A stretch of 46,332 bases of DNA, from assembly GCA_030619865.1 (NCBI GenBank), contig JAUXAP010000006.1:1-46332 (forward strand), given 5' to 3'. Position numbers and translations under genes: made by a program. The notes beneath the pieces were generated by a model. It was not told the origin of the DNA. It searched no databases and saw nothing but the letters and a program-made list of their open reading frames with translations. The DNA comes from Dehalococcoidia bacterium (GTDB lineage Bacteria; Chloroflexota; Dehalococcoidia; Dehalococcoidales; JAUXAP01). Within the stretch, counting starts at the first letter, position 1. The number at the start of each line of letters is the position of its first letter. Shown here in pieces: positions 4,321 through 9,639 of the stretch.

Positions 4321-4461
4321 CTAACTCTTTCCAATTCTGAACATCTTGGTGCCACATGTGGGACACGTCCCCTGAGTAGCTGGTCTCCCGTTCTTCATCA
4401 CTATGGGCTTGGGGTCCCTCATTTCCTTCTTGGCACGACATTTTACGCAATATGCTTGCAT
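4321..4461 (-). CDS. Possible internally initiated DUF5679 protein (46 aa)
   Basis: Starting at the in-frame ATG at 4461 gives a 46-residue protein that is exactly one DUF5679 domain, with CVKC and CPTC pairs. A near-perfect Shine-Dalgarno, AAAAGGAGGT at 4469-4478, is 7 bases upstream, far better than expected by chance inside a coding frame. DUF5679 proteins are usually stand-alone proteins of about this size (from memory). Either the larger ORF is translated from both starts, or the ribbon and DUF5679 parts are being read as one gene only because no stop separates them. Confidence 0.5.
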   Translation of the reverse strand: MQAYCVKCRAKKEMRDPKPIVMKNGRPATQGTCPTCGTKMFRIGKS

Positions 4462-4581
4462 TTGGTTTACCTCCTTTTCAGGTTTTTGAAGCCTTATCGG
4501 GCCACCCTTCAGTATTGGATAATTGCACCACTGGCAGTAGTCACCGCTCGTCTTCTGACCACAGTTAGGGCACCTAACCAT
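4321..4581 (-). CDS. Zinc-ribbon protein fused to a DUF5679 domain
   Basis: An 86-aa protein with two zinc-binding modules. Residues 4-19 hold CPNCG...CQWCNYP (C4, C7, C16, C19). Residues 41-86 form a DUF5679-like domain with C45xxC48 and C73xxC76 (AYCVKC, GTCPTCG). The start ATG is preceded by GGAGG (4588-4592) at 6-base spacing, and a promoter lies just upstream. Inside the frame, AAAAGGAGGT (4469-4478) sits 7 bases before Met41, so the DUF5679 part could also be made alone. The N-terminal ribbon recurs in the next two genes. Molecular function is unknown; nucleic-acid or protein binding is likely for such ribbons. Confidence 0.75.
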   Translation of the reverse strand: MVRCPNCGQKTSGDYCQWCNYPILKGGPIRLQKPEKEVNQMQAYCVKCRAKKEMRDPKPIVMKNGRPATQGTCPTCGTKMFRIGKS

Positions 4582-4611
4582 TTAGAACCTCCAATTAATG
4601 TGTTTACTAAT

Positions 4612-4640
4612 AATATAATATAGCATACTTAGCTATTCAA
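4612..4640 (-). promoter_or_regulatory. Sigma-70-type promoter for the DUF5679 gene
   Basis: On the minus strand TTGAAT (4635-4640) and TATATT (4612-4617) are separated by 17 bases. The expected start of transcription, near 4605, gives a leader of about 25 bases containing the GGAGG ribosome-binding site. Confidence 0.6.
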
Positions 4641-4879
4641 GCGACACTCCAAGCTTAGCCAACACTTTATTCTTACTGTCGTGACAAGTAAGTTCAATGG
4701 GAAAAATGACAACCTTCTACCAAGAAGTTCCAGCTAAAGGGTATTTGCTAAACAGCAGATAGAACATTTGTGGAGGAACACTGAGGTACTTGCCGAAGCA
4801 GATTGAGTGGCAACATAATACTGTTCAAAACTATTACCTACTTTCGGTAGGAGCAGAAGCTCGCCTACTAGCGGAAATC

Positions 4880-4907
4880 TTGACAAGTTACCACTGTCAT
4901 TTATAAT
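4880..4907 (+). promoter_or_regulatory. Consensus sigma-70 promoter for the OB-fold zinc-ribbon gene
   Basis: TTGACA (4880-4885) and TATAAT (4902-4907) both match the consensus in full with a 16-base spacer. The start codon is at 4926, so the leader is only about a dozen bases and just holds the AGAGGTG ribosome-binding site (4915-4921). Confidence 0.75.
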
Positions 4908-4925
4908 TATGGGAAGAGGTGTTGA

Positions 4926-5531
4926 ATGCGGAAGTGTCCTAACTGTGGTCAGGTGACCGCAAGAACCGAGGATTGGGCATGCCAGTGGTGTGCTTATCCC
5001 CTGTTATCAGGGAATTACGAAAGGATCTCCAAGACTTATAAACAACTCCAGGAAGAGAAGCTGCGTAAGCAGAAAGCCCCTCGGAGAGAGCAAACTGGGA
5101 CGTTTCCTCTACCTAATGATAGCAGTTTACCGCCAACACACACGCCGGAGTCTAAATCAGAGCCCACTTTGGATTCCGGACTTGCACCAAAGCCCAAGCG
5201 ACAACCTAAGTCAAAACGGAAGTCTGACCGTGGGCTAGTGGTAGCCCCGGTAGAGGTAACGGTTGAAGAATTGTATTCACTATTCGCGATGCAGAGTTTT
5301 AAGGTAACGGGAGTAGTGAACAAAATAGTATTAGAAGATAGTCTTAACGTTTACTATATTATTCTAGCTGGTACTAATAAAACCGTAGAACTGGACGTCC
5401 AGTGTATGTTTGACAAGAAGCACCTATCTGAACTGAACCAGTTGACAAAAGGACAAAACGTGACAGTAGAAGGCAACTATGCTGGCTACATAATAAACAT
5501 GCTTATGAGAAATTGTGTTTTAGTTCACTAA
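4926..5531 (+). CDS. Zinc-ribbon protein with C-terminal OB-fold (tRNA_anti-like) domain
   Basis: A 201-aa three-part protein. Residues 4-22 are a zinc ribbon, CPNC...CQWCAYPLL (C4, C7, C19, C22). Residues 30-105 are a basic, Pro/Ser/Lys-rich linker without obvious fold. Residues from about 108 to the end (VTVEELYSLF, FKVTGVVNKIVLED, KGQNVTVEGNYAGY) resemble the OB-fold tRNA_anti-like domain, PF12869, from memory of its 'f...k.kgk.v.V.G.v' pattern. It follows a consensus promoter. The ribbon is paralogous to those of the flanking genes. No signal peptide is seen, so it should be cytosolic; nucleic-acid or nucleotide binding is possible, the exact role unknown. Confidence 0.75.
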   Translation: MRKCPNCGQVTARTEDWACQWCAYPLLSGNYERISKTYKQLQEEKLRKQKAPRREQTGTFPLPNDSSLPPTHTPESKSEPTLDSGLAPKPKRQPKSKRKSDRGLVVAPVEVTVEELYSLFAMQSFKVTGVVNKIVLEDSLNVYYIILAGTNKTVELDVQCMFDKKHLSELNQLTKGQNVTVEGNYAGYIINMLMRNCVLVH

Positions 5532-5823
5532 AAATACCTCTAGCTGTAGTGCTACCTTCTCGCCATCTGCCATTGAACTTTATTAACATGTATTATTTTG
5601 AATGCAGAAACTGATCCACCCTTTAGGCAATACCTTCCCCTTCTCCAAAGTCGCAACTGTAGTCATCACGCACAGGAGTCAATTTGTTGCAGCAGGTTAC
5701 CTACCAGAGTGGAGGATGGTTGGTTGCGGCTTATTGTGTTACGCCACTTTATCTTTGTTGACAAAAAGGTGTATAATGAAACTGAGCATTTCGAAGCTAA
5801 GGTAGGCGTATTTAGGTGATAAA

Positions 5824-7209
5824 ATGCCAAAATGTCACAACTGTGACCGAAAAACTGGCAACGGCGACTTCTGTCAGTGGTGTCATTACCCACTGAATAG
5901 ACGCACATTTTTTCCTTTCCAAGTAAGGAGAAAGCCGCACCTTAGTAAGCTTGCTAGACAGACCGAAATGAAGGCTGAGCAGACTAAGAAACTTGCTAGA
6001 CAGGCCCAAGTGAAGGACCCGCAGATTATTAAGGTGCGCAAAGAGGCTGGGGCAGCGTGGACCATGGCTCCGTTTAGACTATCACGCGAGAACAATTCAG
6101 AGACCAAGTCTAAAGAGAAGAATTCACCAAAATCAGACAGTGTGATACAGCGTCAGGCTAAGGAATTACTTGGCAGAGAATTTCGCACAGTCAATAATGG
6201 TTTGGACCCAGAAGAAGTCATGACCTTTCTTGAGACGGCCGTCGGTTCAAGTGAAGCCACTGTCAAACGTCTGGAGCATATGGTGTCTCTTCACAGGCTT
6301 TCTCAGACGATGGAGCGAATGGTTGAGGAGACCCGCCAATTTTCCGATGACATTAAGGAAATAGCAAAACAAGAGGCTGAAGCGGAAAAGGCTGAAATAC
6401 TTGAGGAAGCTCAACGCAGAGCTGAAGAAATGGTAGCCCAAGTCAAGAAGAGTTGGAGTGCTTCTATCCAAAGCGCAAACTCCATTCTCTTAGAAGCTCA
6501 ACGCAGAGCTGAAGAAATGGTAGACCAGACCAAGACGAATTGCAGTGCTCTTATTGAAAACGCGAACTCGGCTCTCTTAGAAGCTGCCACAAAAGTGAGA
6601 GAAGTGGAGATGGCTTTCCAGAATGTTAAAGAGATGATGGATATGGGTACGGAATCGGTGCGGCAAAGTATACCTGATCTTGTGAACTCGACCCGTCGCG
6701 ACCTGAGTTTGCTGTATGAACAATATACAAAGGAGCTGTCAACTTTAGGATTTGAAAGCGTTGAAACCTCATCCTATGCTAGAGACCAAGCAACAATACA
6801 AGCAGAGGGTGTTCCTGAATCGGCAAAGGTTGACGAAAGTGAAAAGACACCTGATATCGCTCCGGAGCCCCTCCTGTTCAGTGGTAAAGTAATACTGGCA
6901 ATCCCTCAGGAAGCTGGACCATCATGGATGGAACAGCTGCGACAGCGACTACGCAACATCCGTGGTGTATCCATTTTACTGGATGTACGTACTAATGCGG
7001 GCGTAAGCATCATGCATTTGTCGTTAGACGAGCCCGTCCCTCTAGCTTCGATACTGCTAGAAATGCCAAATCTTGAAAGCGTGGTAGAAGACTACCAGAA
7101 GGTAGAAGAGTATTCGGGGGGCTTGGCAAAGATACTAAGTCAGCACGTGCTAGATGGACAGCACCCAACAATGCTTGCGGTAGTGCTCAGCGGTGGTACT
7201 ACGGAGTAA
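5824..7209 (+). CDS. Zinc-ribbon, DivIVA-like coiled-coil protein
   Basis: A 461-aa protein. Residues 4-20 are the same zinc ribbon as in the two previous genes (CHNC...CQWCHYPL). Residues about 107-155 (LLGREFRTVNNGLDPEEVMTF) resemble the DivIVA N-terminal membrane/pole-targeting motif. Residues about 155-300 are predicted coiled coil, with a 29-residue duplication (EAQRRAEEMV twice, see the repeat entry). The last 110 residues (GKVILAIPQEAGPSWMEQL onwards) form a compact alpha/beta domain that I do not recognise. The role is unknown; scaffolding at the envelope or pole is a reasonable guess from the DivIVA-like part. The start is ATG at 5824 behind AGGTGA. TATAAT at 5772-5777 is a possible -10 without a clear -35. 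Confidence 0.75.
   Translation: MPKCHNCDRKTGNGDFCQWCHYPLNRRTFFPFQVRRKPHLSKLARQTEMKAEQTKKLARQAQVKDPQIIKVRKEAGAAWTMAPFRLSRENNSETKSKEKNSPKSDSVIQRQAKELLGREFRTVNNGLDPEEVMTFLETAVGSSEATVKRLEHMVSLHRLSQTMERMVEETRQFSDDIKEIAKQEAEAEKAEILEEAQRRAEEMVAQVKKSWSASIQSANSILLEAQRRAEEMVDQTKTNCSALIENANSALLEAATKVREVEMAFQNVKEMMDMGTESVRQSIPDLVNSTRRDLSLLYEQYTKELSTLGFESVETSSYARDQATIQAEGVPESAKVDESEKTPDIAPEPLLFSGKVILAIPQEAGPSWMEQLRQRLRNIRGVSILLDVRTNAGVSIMHLSLDEPVPLASILLEMPNLESVVEDYQKVEEYSGGLAKILSQHVLDGQHPTMLAVVLSGGTTE
6406..6523 (+). repeat. Two-copy 31-nt direct repeat inside the coiled coil
   Basis: The same 31 bases occur at 6406-6436 and 6493-6523, a period of 87 bases or 29 codons, each encoding EAQRRAEEMV. Near-complete identity at the DNA level, including synonymous sites, suggests a recent in-frame duplication that lengthened the coiled coil. 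Confidence 0.8.
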
Positions 7210-7562
7210 TTGTTCAGCTCGCCCGGCCTAACGTAATTTGAGCAGGGCCCATGATTCTCCTTATGACTTCATTGAACACTGCAGTTTGTTTCTTTTTGGA
7301 ATTCAAAGAAAAAGTAGTTAGAGAGTAGCGGTATTTCAAAAGGCGACGACAATAGATAATAATTGGAGTTATGGGATGAGTAAAAGCAGTCAAGAACAGT
7401 TGAAAGCCGGGCAAAGCCTTTATTCTTGACGGCTGGTAAAGCAGGTAGATAATCAAGTACGAGGGGAGCTGGGGCACGTAGCCTCCAACACTACCGCTAA
7501 ATACAGAAAGGTCGCATGATTGGAGAAGTGAAACTTTAACTGATAGGCATAGCACTGAATCA
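7210..7562. other. Convergent intergenic region, nothing recognised
   Basis: About 350 bases between the DivIVA-like gene and the end of the HAD phosphatase gene. The minus-strand frame 7214-7678 overlaps the phosphatase and resembles no protein I know. I see no convincing terminator or repeat. Confidence 0.5.
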
Positions 7563-8192
7563 TCAAAGAAGGCAAACTTGGTGTAGTATATCGTTAAAGT
7601 TAGAAAACCCGCTGTAGACAACTGGTTCGGCGCTGAGCAATCCTGGCAGATACCCCGTGGCAAATACATGGTCAGCATGACGTGCAGCTTCCAAGTCAGA
7701 GAGCCCGTCCCCTATGTAGATGATATCCTTGTCTCTTTTCTTGAGCCAGGTCAAATGTTTTTCCTTAAACCCCTCGTTGATGATGTCACCTTCAGGATTG
7801 AAGTAAGAAACGGAAATGCCATCTTTGCTGAAGGAGGTTTGTCCACAGTACAATTCCAAATCTGGCATACCAATCTGGGCCAATACAGTCTCAATGTAAA
7901 AATCCAGCCCACTGCTAACAATGATAAATGGAATAGCACTCTCCCGGCAGTAACCAACAAATTCTAGAAAGCCTGGCCTTAACTCGATATGCTGACGAAC
8001 AAATTCTTGGAGCTTCTCCTTGGACTCTTTGATGAGCCTATACTGGAGTTTATTGCTTTGTTCAACGGTTAAAGAGCCGTCAAGGTAGTCGCTTTCAATC
8101 CTTTGCCAGTCAGCGGAGGCAAAATTTTCTCTGAGCAGAACACTGAGGTTATTTCTGGTGACGGTTCCATCAAAATCACACTGGATAATCAT
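7563..8192 (-). CDS. HAD-superfamily phosphatase (MtnX/SerB-like)
   Basis: A 209-aa HAD phosphatase of the IB type. All four motifs are present: DFDGT at 6-10 (nucleophile D6 and acid D8), IVSSG with the motif II Ser, the motif III Lys in GFKEKHL, and YIGDGLSDLEAARHAD with the metal-binding Asp pair. The overall pattern resembles MtnX, which dephosphorylates a methionine-salvage enol-phosphate. However, the gene is the last of a three-gene minus-strand cluster, 49 bases after a di-myo-inositol-phosphate synthase-type CDP-alcohol phosphotransferase and its cytidylyltransferase. Removal of the phosphate left on their product is therefore an attractive alternative role. The family call is firm; the substrate is inference. 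Confidence 0.85.
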   Translation of the reverse strand: MIIQCDFDGTVTRNNLSVLLRENFASADWQRIESDYLDGSLTVEQSNKLQYRLIKESKEKLQEFVRQHIELRPGFLEFVGYCRESAIPFIIVSSGLDFYIETVLAQIGMPDLELYCGQTSFSKDGISVSYFNPEGDIINEGFKEKHLTWLKKRDKDIIYIGDGLSDLEAARHADHVFATGYLPGLLSAEPVVYSGFSNFNDILHQVCLL

Positions 8193-8241
8193 TGCTCACA
8201 TCATATTATATCTAAATAAAAAAGCAAGGTTGCCGGTGTTT

Positions 8242-8898
8242 CTACGGAGCTTTGCTACTTTGAAAAGCAGGCTTAGATTGGCTGGCTTTTTGCCCAAGGT
8301 ATCTACGGATATAAATGAGCCTATATAAAGCCACCAGGTTGGTTAAAGCGGCTATGGCAATAAGACAGAAGTAGGCTTGCCCGGCGACTGCTCCGAGCAT
8401 TATTAAGAAAAGTCTTATATCACGTGAGGCGAGAGATTTGAGTCCTCTATCAAATAAGTGCCTGTGACTAGAGCCGATACGGGCTCTAGTATAGCTAATG
8501 CAAGTGGTACCAGCCATGGCTAGAAAGCCGACCAGCCAAATTGAAATTGCAGGATAAGTCTCATTAGATACAGACCACAAGGTAAGCCCTAGTAGTATCA
8601 AGATATCGGCATACCGGTCAAGCACGGAATCCAGGAAGCCGCCAAATGTAGAAGCCATACCTTTTAGACGGGCTAAACTGCCATCTACACCATCAACAAC
8701 AGACGATAGCTGAACCAAGAGACCCCCTATTACGTTCTGCCCAAAAATGAAGCTTATAAAGGACAAAAGCGCAATGCCGAATGCTGCCCAGGTTATTTGG
8801 TTAGGTGTTATTCTTGTCTTTGCAAACACACGTGCCACCGGCTCTGATGCCTTTCTGTTTATGTATCTGGAAATGTAGCCGTCGTACACAGCTTCCAT
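8242..8898 (-). CDS. CDP-alcohol phosphatidyltransferase family protein, DIPP synthase-like
   Basis: A 218-aa integral membrane transferase. The family motif DGxxAR(x8)GxxxDxxxD is complete: DGVDGSLAR...GFLDSVLD. Several hydrophobic helices follow. It opens with DGYISRYINRKASEP and RITPNQITW and later has SRDIRLFLIML. These closely match my memory of the membrane half of the archaeal bifunctional IPCT/DIPPS protein, which joins CDP-inositol to inositol-1-phosphate to give di-myo-inositol-1,3'-phosphate-1'-phosphate. A phospholipid head-group synthase is the alternative. Its ATG follows GGAG with 9 bases between the upstream stop and this start, so it is cotranscribed with the cytidylyltransferase. 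Confidence 0.88.
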   Translation of the reverse strand: MEAVYDGYISRYINRKASEPVARVFAKTRITPNQITWAAFGIALLSFISFIFGQNVIGGLLVQLSSVVDGVDGSLARLKGMASTFGGFLDSVLDRYADILILLGLTLWSVSNETYPAISIWLVGFLAMAGTTCISYTRARIGSSHRHLFDRGLKSLASRDIRLFLIMLGAVAGQAYFCLIAIAALTNLVALYRLIYIRRYLGQKASQSKPAFQSSKAP

Positions 8899-8907
8899 CT
8901 TTGTCTC

Positions 8908-9639
8908 CTACACCCTCACCCGGTCTAAATCTTCACCGGTATCTACATCTGCCCAAAAACAGCCGCTAACATCGCATGTATCAAAACGATATCCCTGGCC
9001 GATTAAGAAACGGATAGCATCGCTCATTTCAACATTGTTCCCAAAATGGTGAACAAGCTCTTCCAGAGCCCGAAAGAAATTCTCTGTCAGAAGAAAGGTG
9101 CCGGTATCCAGAGCGTTCCAATAAACAAGGTCCTTGCCAATGTCCGTAATACAGCCGGCAATATCAACAGTAACCTTGGTTGCCTCGGCTAGTTGATGGT
9201 GTTGTGCTGGCGTATAATCGACACAAAGTGTTTCATTAACAGCCTGTCTATCTAGAAGACTCTTGATCGCCTTCCTCTCGATTATGTGGTCTCCCATGCA
9301 AAGAACAACCGGGTCTTCTTGCACCCAATCTCTGGCCTTATATGCTGAGATAGCATTGCCTCCGAGATAGTCAGGGTTAAAAATATATTGCAGCTTGGCA
9401 CCAAAGTTGCTACCATCGCCCAGCACCTCAATAACCTTATCTCCTAAGTAACCGACTACGATCGCTATTTCATTAATGCCGGAGAATACCATTGCTTCAA
9501 TAGGATAACTTATTAGCAGCGCCTTGTCGTATACAGGCAGCAAAACCTTGGGACAGGTGCTGGTTAGGGAACCTAAGCGATCACCGTCACCAGCAGCTAG
9601 GATAACACCTTTATCAACTTTTCGTTTATACACTGTCAA
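8908..9639 (-). CDS. Nucleotidyltransferase, CTP:inositol-1-phosphate cytidylyltransferase-like
   Basis: A 243-aa sugar-phosphate nucleotidyltransferase. The N-terminal signature is GVILAAGDGDRLGSLTSTCPK with the catalytic Arg and Lys, then GGNAISAYKARDW and the metal-binding LCMGDH. The segments EATKVTVDIAGCITDIGKDL, LDTGTFLL and WADVDTGEDL match, from memory, the IPCT domain of archaeal IPCT/DIPPS proteins rather than glucose-1-phosphate transferases. The partner half is encoded by the next gene, so here the two activities are separate polypeptides. The start is a TTG at 9639: AAGGAG (9646-9651) is 6 bases upstream, and no ATG is available. A promoter and a leader inverted repeat lie upstream. 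Confidence 0.85.
   Translation of the reverse strand: MTVYKRKVDKGVILAAGDGDRLGSLTSTCPKVLLPVYDKALLISYPIEAMVFSGINEIAIVVGYLGDKVIEVLGDGSNFGAKLQYIFNPDYLGGNAISAYKARDWVQEDPVVLCMGDHIIERKAIKSLLDRQAVNETLCVDYTPAQHHQLAEATKVTVDIAGCITDIGKDLVYWNALDTGTFLLTENFFRALEELVHHFGNNVEMSDAIRFLIGQGYRFDTCDVSGCFWADVDTGEDLDRVRV

Follow-up and report, generated by a model that had tools for sequence, protein, structure and literature searches.

The question raised by this locus is why three neighbouring genes should begin with the same small cysteine-rich segment when the parts that follow are unrelated. The window (the whole 46,332-nucleotide stretch that was analysed) belongs to a fragmentary MAG, G000, of 823 kb in 27 contigs which is 58% complete. 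The initial annotation proposed a lineage-specific N-terminal tag joined to different bodies. The features discussed here are listed below; G033 is a genome of another family in which the locus is syntenic.

4321–4581, minus strand: P0001, 86 aa; ribbon at residues 1–26 (E 1.5e-15), in frame with DUF5679 at residues 44–83
4441–4461, minus strand: DUF5679 ribosome-binding site and start inside P0001 (aaaaggaggtaaaccaaATG, Met41)
4880–4907, plus strand: promoter-like site TTGACA-16-TATAAT just upstream of P0002 (12/12; a consensus match only)
4926–5531, plus strand: P0002, 201 aa; ribbon 1–29, flexible linker about 51–112, OB fold 113–200
5824–7209, plus strand: P0003, 461 aa; ribbon 1–27, linker 28–80, DivIVA-like coil 81 to about 340, CT domain 350–461
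6060–6068, plus strand: inversion breakpoint in P0003 (Met81, ATG at 6064), where homology to G033 switches
6871–7206, plus strand: CT domain of P0003, predicted beta-alpha-beta-beta-alpha-beta (pLDDT 87, pTM 0.78)

The ribbon and its bodies in the window

Each of the three ORFs carries at its N-terminus a four-cysteine ribbon of about 27 residues with the motif C-x-N-C-x(8,9,11)-C-Q-W-C-x-Y-P. Alignment of P0001–P0003 shows invariant C4, N6, C7, C16, Q17, W18, C19 and Y21 (numbering of the first sequence), and the four cysteines, the Gln-Trp pair and the Tyr stay invariant when a fourth protein of the same genome is included. The ribbon profile detects each of the three with per-genome E values of 1e-14 to 1e-18, and the DNA pattern TGYCARTGGTGY occurs eight times in the 823-kb assembly compared with once for the reversed control. 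The profile detects only five ribbons across the entire assembly, and three of these lie within 1.4 kb of sequence; the other tagged proteins are an archaeal-type signal peptidase I (C22; TIGR02228, above cut-off) and a coil rich in Lys and Glu that carries a C-terminal domain (C7). The ORFs and their ribbon are real and the annotated coordinates are right, but the description of the N-termini as 'nearly the same' is a little strong, since they share 46–59% identity across about 28 alignment columns, and the first of the three adjacent genes lies on the minus strand, divergent from the P0002 gene.

The C-terminal parts are mutually unrelated, as had been annotated. P0001 continues into DUF5679 (PF18930; E 2.7e-16, 59.9 bits, over the cut-off of 27) and P0002 into a tRNA_anti-like OB fold (PF12869; E 2.3e-10, 40.6 bits, over the cut-off of 23.5). 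The DivIVA match is weak in P0003, which scores 18.4 bits against PF05103 (cut-off 28 bits) compared with 35.8 bits for the relative of its body in G033. As in DivIVA/GpsB-type proteins (PF05103), the body of P0003 consists of an N-terminal DivIVA-like segment followed by a coil, but it ends in a ferredoxin-like CT domain that belongs to no family and, in the window, has a ribbon in front. No paper on DivIVA in Dehalococcoidia was found in the open literature.

In the predicted structure of P0002, the ribbon and the OB fold have pLDDT values mostly above 85, while the linker is disordered (about 50). The low overall pTM of 0.47 can be attributed to the flexibility of this linker. Structure searches with the OB part gave 3f1z, a putative lipoprotein, as the best matching solved relative, and OB-containing and single-strand-binding proteins were among the matches. 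The PF12869 family, whose OB body is shared by P0002 and 63 ribbon ORFs, is usually ribbon-less, whereas here a ribbon and a long acidic linker precede the OB fold. The DUF35-type protein SSO2064 (PMC2954200) likewise has an OB fold behind a zinc ribbon at its N-terminus. P0002 differs from that type in its OB family (PF12869 instead of PF01796) and in the long disordered linker between the two parts; none of the matches obtained for P0002 with E values up to 1 was to PF01796.

Distribution and partner proteins

A profile (A2) was built from 43 ribbons, in all of which the four cysteines are invariant. With this profile the ribbon is present in 78 of 156 Dehalococcoidales genomes. Outside the order, the sampled class (294 genomes) gave two weaker matches; at E ≤ 1e-5, matches beyond the order were limited to one genus within this class, plus one match of 31 bits elsewhere in the phylum, which was also surveyed as a sample (400 genomes). 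The ribbon is absent from the complete-chromosome family f9, which we take to be Dehalococcoidaceae. Since half of the genomes of the order, including this family, are without it, the ribbon is dispensable.

When 84,980 species were scanned for the exact DNA pattern, 32 stretches matched, and all except L056 and L064 contain real ribbon ORFs. These ORFs are labelled Dehalococcoidales, Dehalococcoidia or Chloroflexi/Chloroflexota, apart from two labelled Deltaproteobacteria. Both of the latter belong to the same order, as L058 corresponds to G031 by match position and L060 (G771) to G689 by coordinates. Pattern matches in Burkholderiales and Acidobacteria were dismissed as chance, with a 28-aa ORF in one case and no ribbon ORF in the other, in genomes without a profile match.

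Among 297 genomes of another phylum, the highest-scoring matches (28–34 bits) were generic CPNCG...CP[HY]CGYPL ribbons located before TPR repeats. Generic ribbons elsewhere, taken together with the restricted occurrence of CxWCxYP, indicate that the fold class is general and that the CxWCxYP form, which is nearly confined to Dehalococcoidales, is a lineage mark. The lineage specificity that had been proposed is thus borne out. The contrary case, a generic ribbon with no lineage or domain association, describes the fold class but not this form, which is lineage-restricted and found on many bodies.

Zn_Ribbon_1 (PF13240), Zn_ribbon_3 (PF13248), DUF7575 (PF24460) and DZR (PF12773) likewise have two N-terminal CxxC knuckles and varied bodies. 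The second knuckle of generic zinc ribbons is C-x-x-CG, whereas that of the window-type ribbon is CxWC-x-Y-P and is found in nearly one order only. P0001–P0003 and examples of the partner types fall below the curated cut-offs of these four families, to which A2 members match weakly. The sequence contains the two CxxC knuckles of the zinc-ribbon fold class, and on this basis we regard the ribbon as a derived form of the generic N-terminal class and not as a new fold. The remark that the exact motif was not recognised from described families holds in that it is not named in the libraries and open papers searched; the fold itself is familiar. No paper on the ribbon was found in the open literature, although absence there does not prove that nobody has described the motif.

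The partner survey comprised 103 distinct ribbon ORFs, a few of which are cut by contig ends. The ribbon is N-terminal in 101 of them and occurs with ten or more types of partner, in agreement with the annotation of one small domain on different bodies. The bodies include 63 OB folds, 19 Lys/Glu/Ala coils (some ending in CT) and eight membrane proteins, and among the remainder are response regulators, DUF5679 and long coils, some of them DivIVA-like. The response regulator (G033 and G747), CPBP protease, signal peptidase and OB partners are confirmed by Pfam and NCBIfam. Nearly all of the ribbons have Trp in the second knuckle. The spacer comprises 11 residues in all 63 OB proteins and eight in 16 of the 19 coil proteins, and this dependence of length on body indicates that most pairings are inherited; the C7 protein, a coil-CT protein with an 11-residue spacer, is an exception. 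In L010, L016, L022, L041 and L229 the ribbon is followed by Lys/Glu/Ala repeat coils of up to about 500 aa, many truncated at contig ends; the very long coils are likely to be single alpha helices or coiled coils.

The CT domain (about 85–110 aa, predicted to be ferredoxin-like; a further example is L204:4406–4660) is carried by DivIVA-like proteins and by ribbon-coil proteins encoded close to NarL regulator and type IV pilus genes. It has no Pfam family, and structure searches gave no significant match and no close PDB structure; a match to CheA P2 (E 0.08 over 34 residues) is a lead only. In six loci (families f32 and f37) ribbon-coil(-CT) genes diverge from a gene for a NarL response regulator, and a small HTH gene usually separates the two. 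The next gene recovered encodes a type IV pilus/T2SS ATPase in five of the six, followed by T2SSF and prepilin genes in the longest locus, and in most a secreted protein is encoded on the other side; the coil ORFs often run into contig ends. We note that type IV pilus/T2SS ATPases with an N-terminal Mrr-type restriction-endonuclease-like domain are present at L220:5270–7708, L204:122–2449 and L212:92–2488. The L220 protein matches PF04471 (E 1.9e-8) and T2SSE (E 1e-125) in Pfam, and the other two are close homologues.

A CetZ-like tubulin gene adjoins two ribbon genes, C7 in the window genome and the ribbon-regulator gene of G747. CetZ-like genes (PF00091 with CetZ_C, PF21011; for example, G000:C8:1986–2489 and L226:5355–6521) occur in 128 of the 156 genomes of the order, often in 2–5 copies, and among 14 control genomes only Haloferax volcanii matches. 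Being multicopy and nearly universal, they do not provide a strong link to the ribbon.

Gene fusions at the P0001 and P0003 loci

DUF5679 is a separate gene of 46–60 aa in 59 of 61 relatives, and the separate genes almost always have (A)AGGAGGT a few bases upstream of the start. The layout of AAGGAGGT followed by a start precedes nearly all of the separate genes compared and is matched inside P0001, in which the residues EKEVNQ are the translation of the ribosome-binding-site sequence retained at Met41. The retained start indicates that the 86-aa ORF is a ribbon start fused in frame to a self-starting gene. As the ribosome-binding site has been kept, the ORF may be two products, and P0001 may be translated mainly from the inner start. 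The relatives' loci examined contained no separate DUF5679 gene preceded by a ribbon-coil gene, an arrangement that would be a candidate ancestor of P0001. DUF5679 is itself a multicopy family found in nearly every genome of the order, with up to 13 copies (G006); no mention of it was found in the open literature.

At the syntenic locus of G033, the P0002 orthologue is followed by a ribbon which, together with its upstream DNA, is orthologous to that of P0003. There the ribbon is fused to a NarL-type response regulator, and the body of P0003 is a separate gene on the opposite strand just beyond the ribbon-regulator gene. At 6060–6068 the homology to G033 changes from its ribbon gene to its opposite-strand coil gene. 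Met81 of P0003 corresponds to a GTG in G033 which has TTGACT-17-TATTAT upstream (consensus read by eye); there is no trace of this promoter-like sequence in P0003. In all other relatives found, the homologues of the P0003 body are without a ribbon. The arrangement in G033 and these ribbon-less homologues together indicate that an inversion changed what follows the ribbon.

Flanking synteny between the window and G033 resumes at 7559. The inversion appears to have come with a segment carrying a regulator and a transporter that was lost on one side or gained on the other. Most simply, the coil would have gained the ribbon, although proof of this direction needs more than G033 alone. A ribbon-response regulator is one candidate for the ancestral state at this locus, the G033 regulator being no closer to the ribbon-tagged regulator of G747 (46% identity) than to untagged regulators (48–49%). 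Shufflons and hsdS-type inversions likewise join one N-terminal segment to different bodies, but the P0003 locus has one form per genome, and no inverted repeats of useful length were found at the P0003/G033 breakpoints; a shufflon or phase-variable inversion was rejected for the latter reason.

Between the window and G033, dN/dS is 0.22 for the ribbon codons of P0003 and 1.1 for the linker behind them, and is 0.27 for the ribbon codons of P0002; the ribbon values derive from only 27–30 codons and one pair of genomes. Their direction is consistent with selection acting on the ribbon whichever body follows it, and the ribbon codons look constrained. The P0003 linker also contains a 42-nt tandem duplication at 5947–6028 (KLARQTEMKAEQTK / KLARQAQVKDPQII).

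The fusions of the ribbon to DivIVA-like coil and to DUF5679 were found only in the window genome among the genomes searched. The three proteins do not form a designed set: among them, ribbon-OB alone is an old family with a conserved pairing, and the other two appear to be young fusions.

Further along the window (7566–9639, minus strand), HAD phosphatase, CDP-alcohol phosphatidyltransferase and nucleotidyltransferase genes lie in a row, an order conserved in G033. The row resembles a small pathway for phospholipid or polyol-phosphate head groups, which may be based on inositol phosphate.

Possible function of the ribbon

In our view, held tentatively and as somewhat short of probable, the ribbon may be a lineage-specific zinc-stabilised protein-docking head that is reassorted through the capture of gene starts. 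The four cysteines would hold one metal ion, and the Trp and Tyr-Pro of the second knuckle (C-Q-W-C-x-Y-P) would make the contact on a small rigid surface. Carried on a flexible linker or a helical coil, and placed at cytoplasmic ends of regulators, scaffolds and envelope proteins, the head would bring varied bodies (response regulator, OB fold, DivIVA-like coil, CT domain and membrane proteases) to a single cytoplasmic partner or a small number of them, and the docking place is plausibly the envelope, the site of the type IV pilus and of DivIVA-type proteins. New pairings would arise when, via inversion or deletion, a neighbouring gene captures in frame a gene start that consists of promoter and ribbon.

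Docking is supported by the restriction of the ribbon to one order, its ten or more partner kinds, its N-terminal position in 101 of 103 ORFs and the nearly constant Trp. The low dN/dS of the ribbon (0.22 and 0.27, compared with 1.1 for the linker) despite a changed body, the confident ribbon and disordered linker of the P0002 model, and the exchange of bodies by inversion at the G033 locus point the same way. The six NarL/pilus loci and two separate ribbon-regulator fusions suggest that the head is tied to one functional area. Counting against docking, the gene neighbourhoods of ribbon-OB revealed no shared function, only lineage-specific housekeeping genes. Furthermore, the spacer subtypes follow the body, such that most ribbons may suit their own protein and not a common hub. 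The lack of the ribbon in half of the order's genomes, the small number of codons (27–30) behind the dN/dS values and the possible translation of P0001 mainly from its inner start also weigh against docking. A modular targeting code of the Dehalococcoidales, in which one head present on several proteins of a cell recruits interchangeable bodies (regulators, OB folds, DivIVA-like scaffolds and membrane proteases) to a common hub linked with pilus or cytoskeletal machinery, new members joining by gene-start capture, is unlikely.

It is doubtful, but deserves the most attention among the alternatives, that the ribbons of P0001 and P0003 are passengers acquired in accidental in-frame joins and that ribbon-OB alone makes use of the ribbon. 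DUF5679 has kept a ribosome-binding site of its own and stands alone as a gene elsewhere, and the P0003 body is otherwise ribbon-less; however, the ribbon codons of P0003 appear constrained despite the changed body, the promoter-like sequence of the G033 body gene has left no trace, and ribbon-coil-CT is a recurrent design elsewhere. That the P0003 join is an assembly error between the two strands of a contig is very unlikely. The frame is open for 461 aa to a natural stop, and the resumption of synteny at 7559 means that two misjoins would be needed, although the MAG is fragmentary (27 contigs, 58% complete) and the join is seen in no second genome.

The other alternatives concern the ribbon in general. 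A small generic zinc ribbon acting as a stabilising or redox-sensitive cap, with no common partner and a spread due to shared ancestry only, seems rather unlikely: the matches below cut-off to DUF7575, Zn_ribbon_3, Zn_Ribbon_1 and DZR and the ribbons ahead of TPR repeats in other phyla are as this explanation predicts, but a form nearly limited to one order and present there on many unrelated bodies is not. Contact with nucleic acid, with ribbon-OB as a bipartite ssDNA/RNA binder and the other fusions bringing their bodies to DNA, RNA or ribosomes, is less likely still. It would account for the OB fold as the commonest partner (63 of 103), the single-strand-binding proteins among the structural matches and the ribosomal ribbon L37e among the weak profile matches, but is difficult to reconcile with membrane proteases, signal peptidase and TM proteins as partners, with a putative lipoprotein (3f1z) as the best solved OB relative or with the acidic OB linkers.

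The ribbon provides an undescribed lineage-restricted domain signature in about half of the Dehalococcoidales genomes searched, and the P0003/G033 locus is a concrete snapshot of a head changing bodies. The CT domain adds a ferredoxin-like domain without a family that is linked to loci with NarL regulators and type IV pilus genes. If the head is a docking module, it would be a first way into the organisation of regulators, scaffolds and pilus machinery in these reduced cells, which are uncultured, and a search for the hub could use the ribbon as bait.
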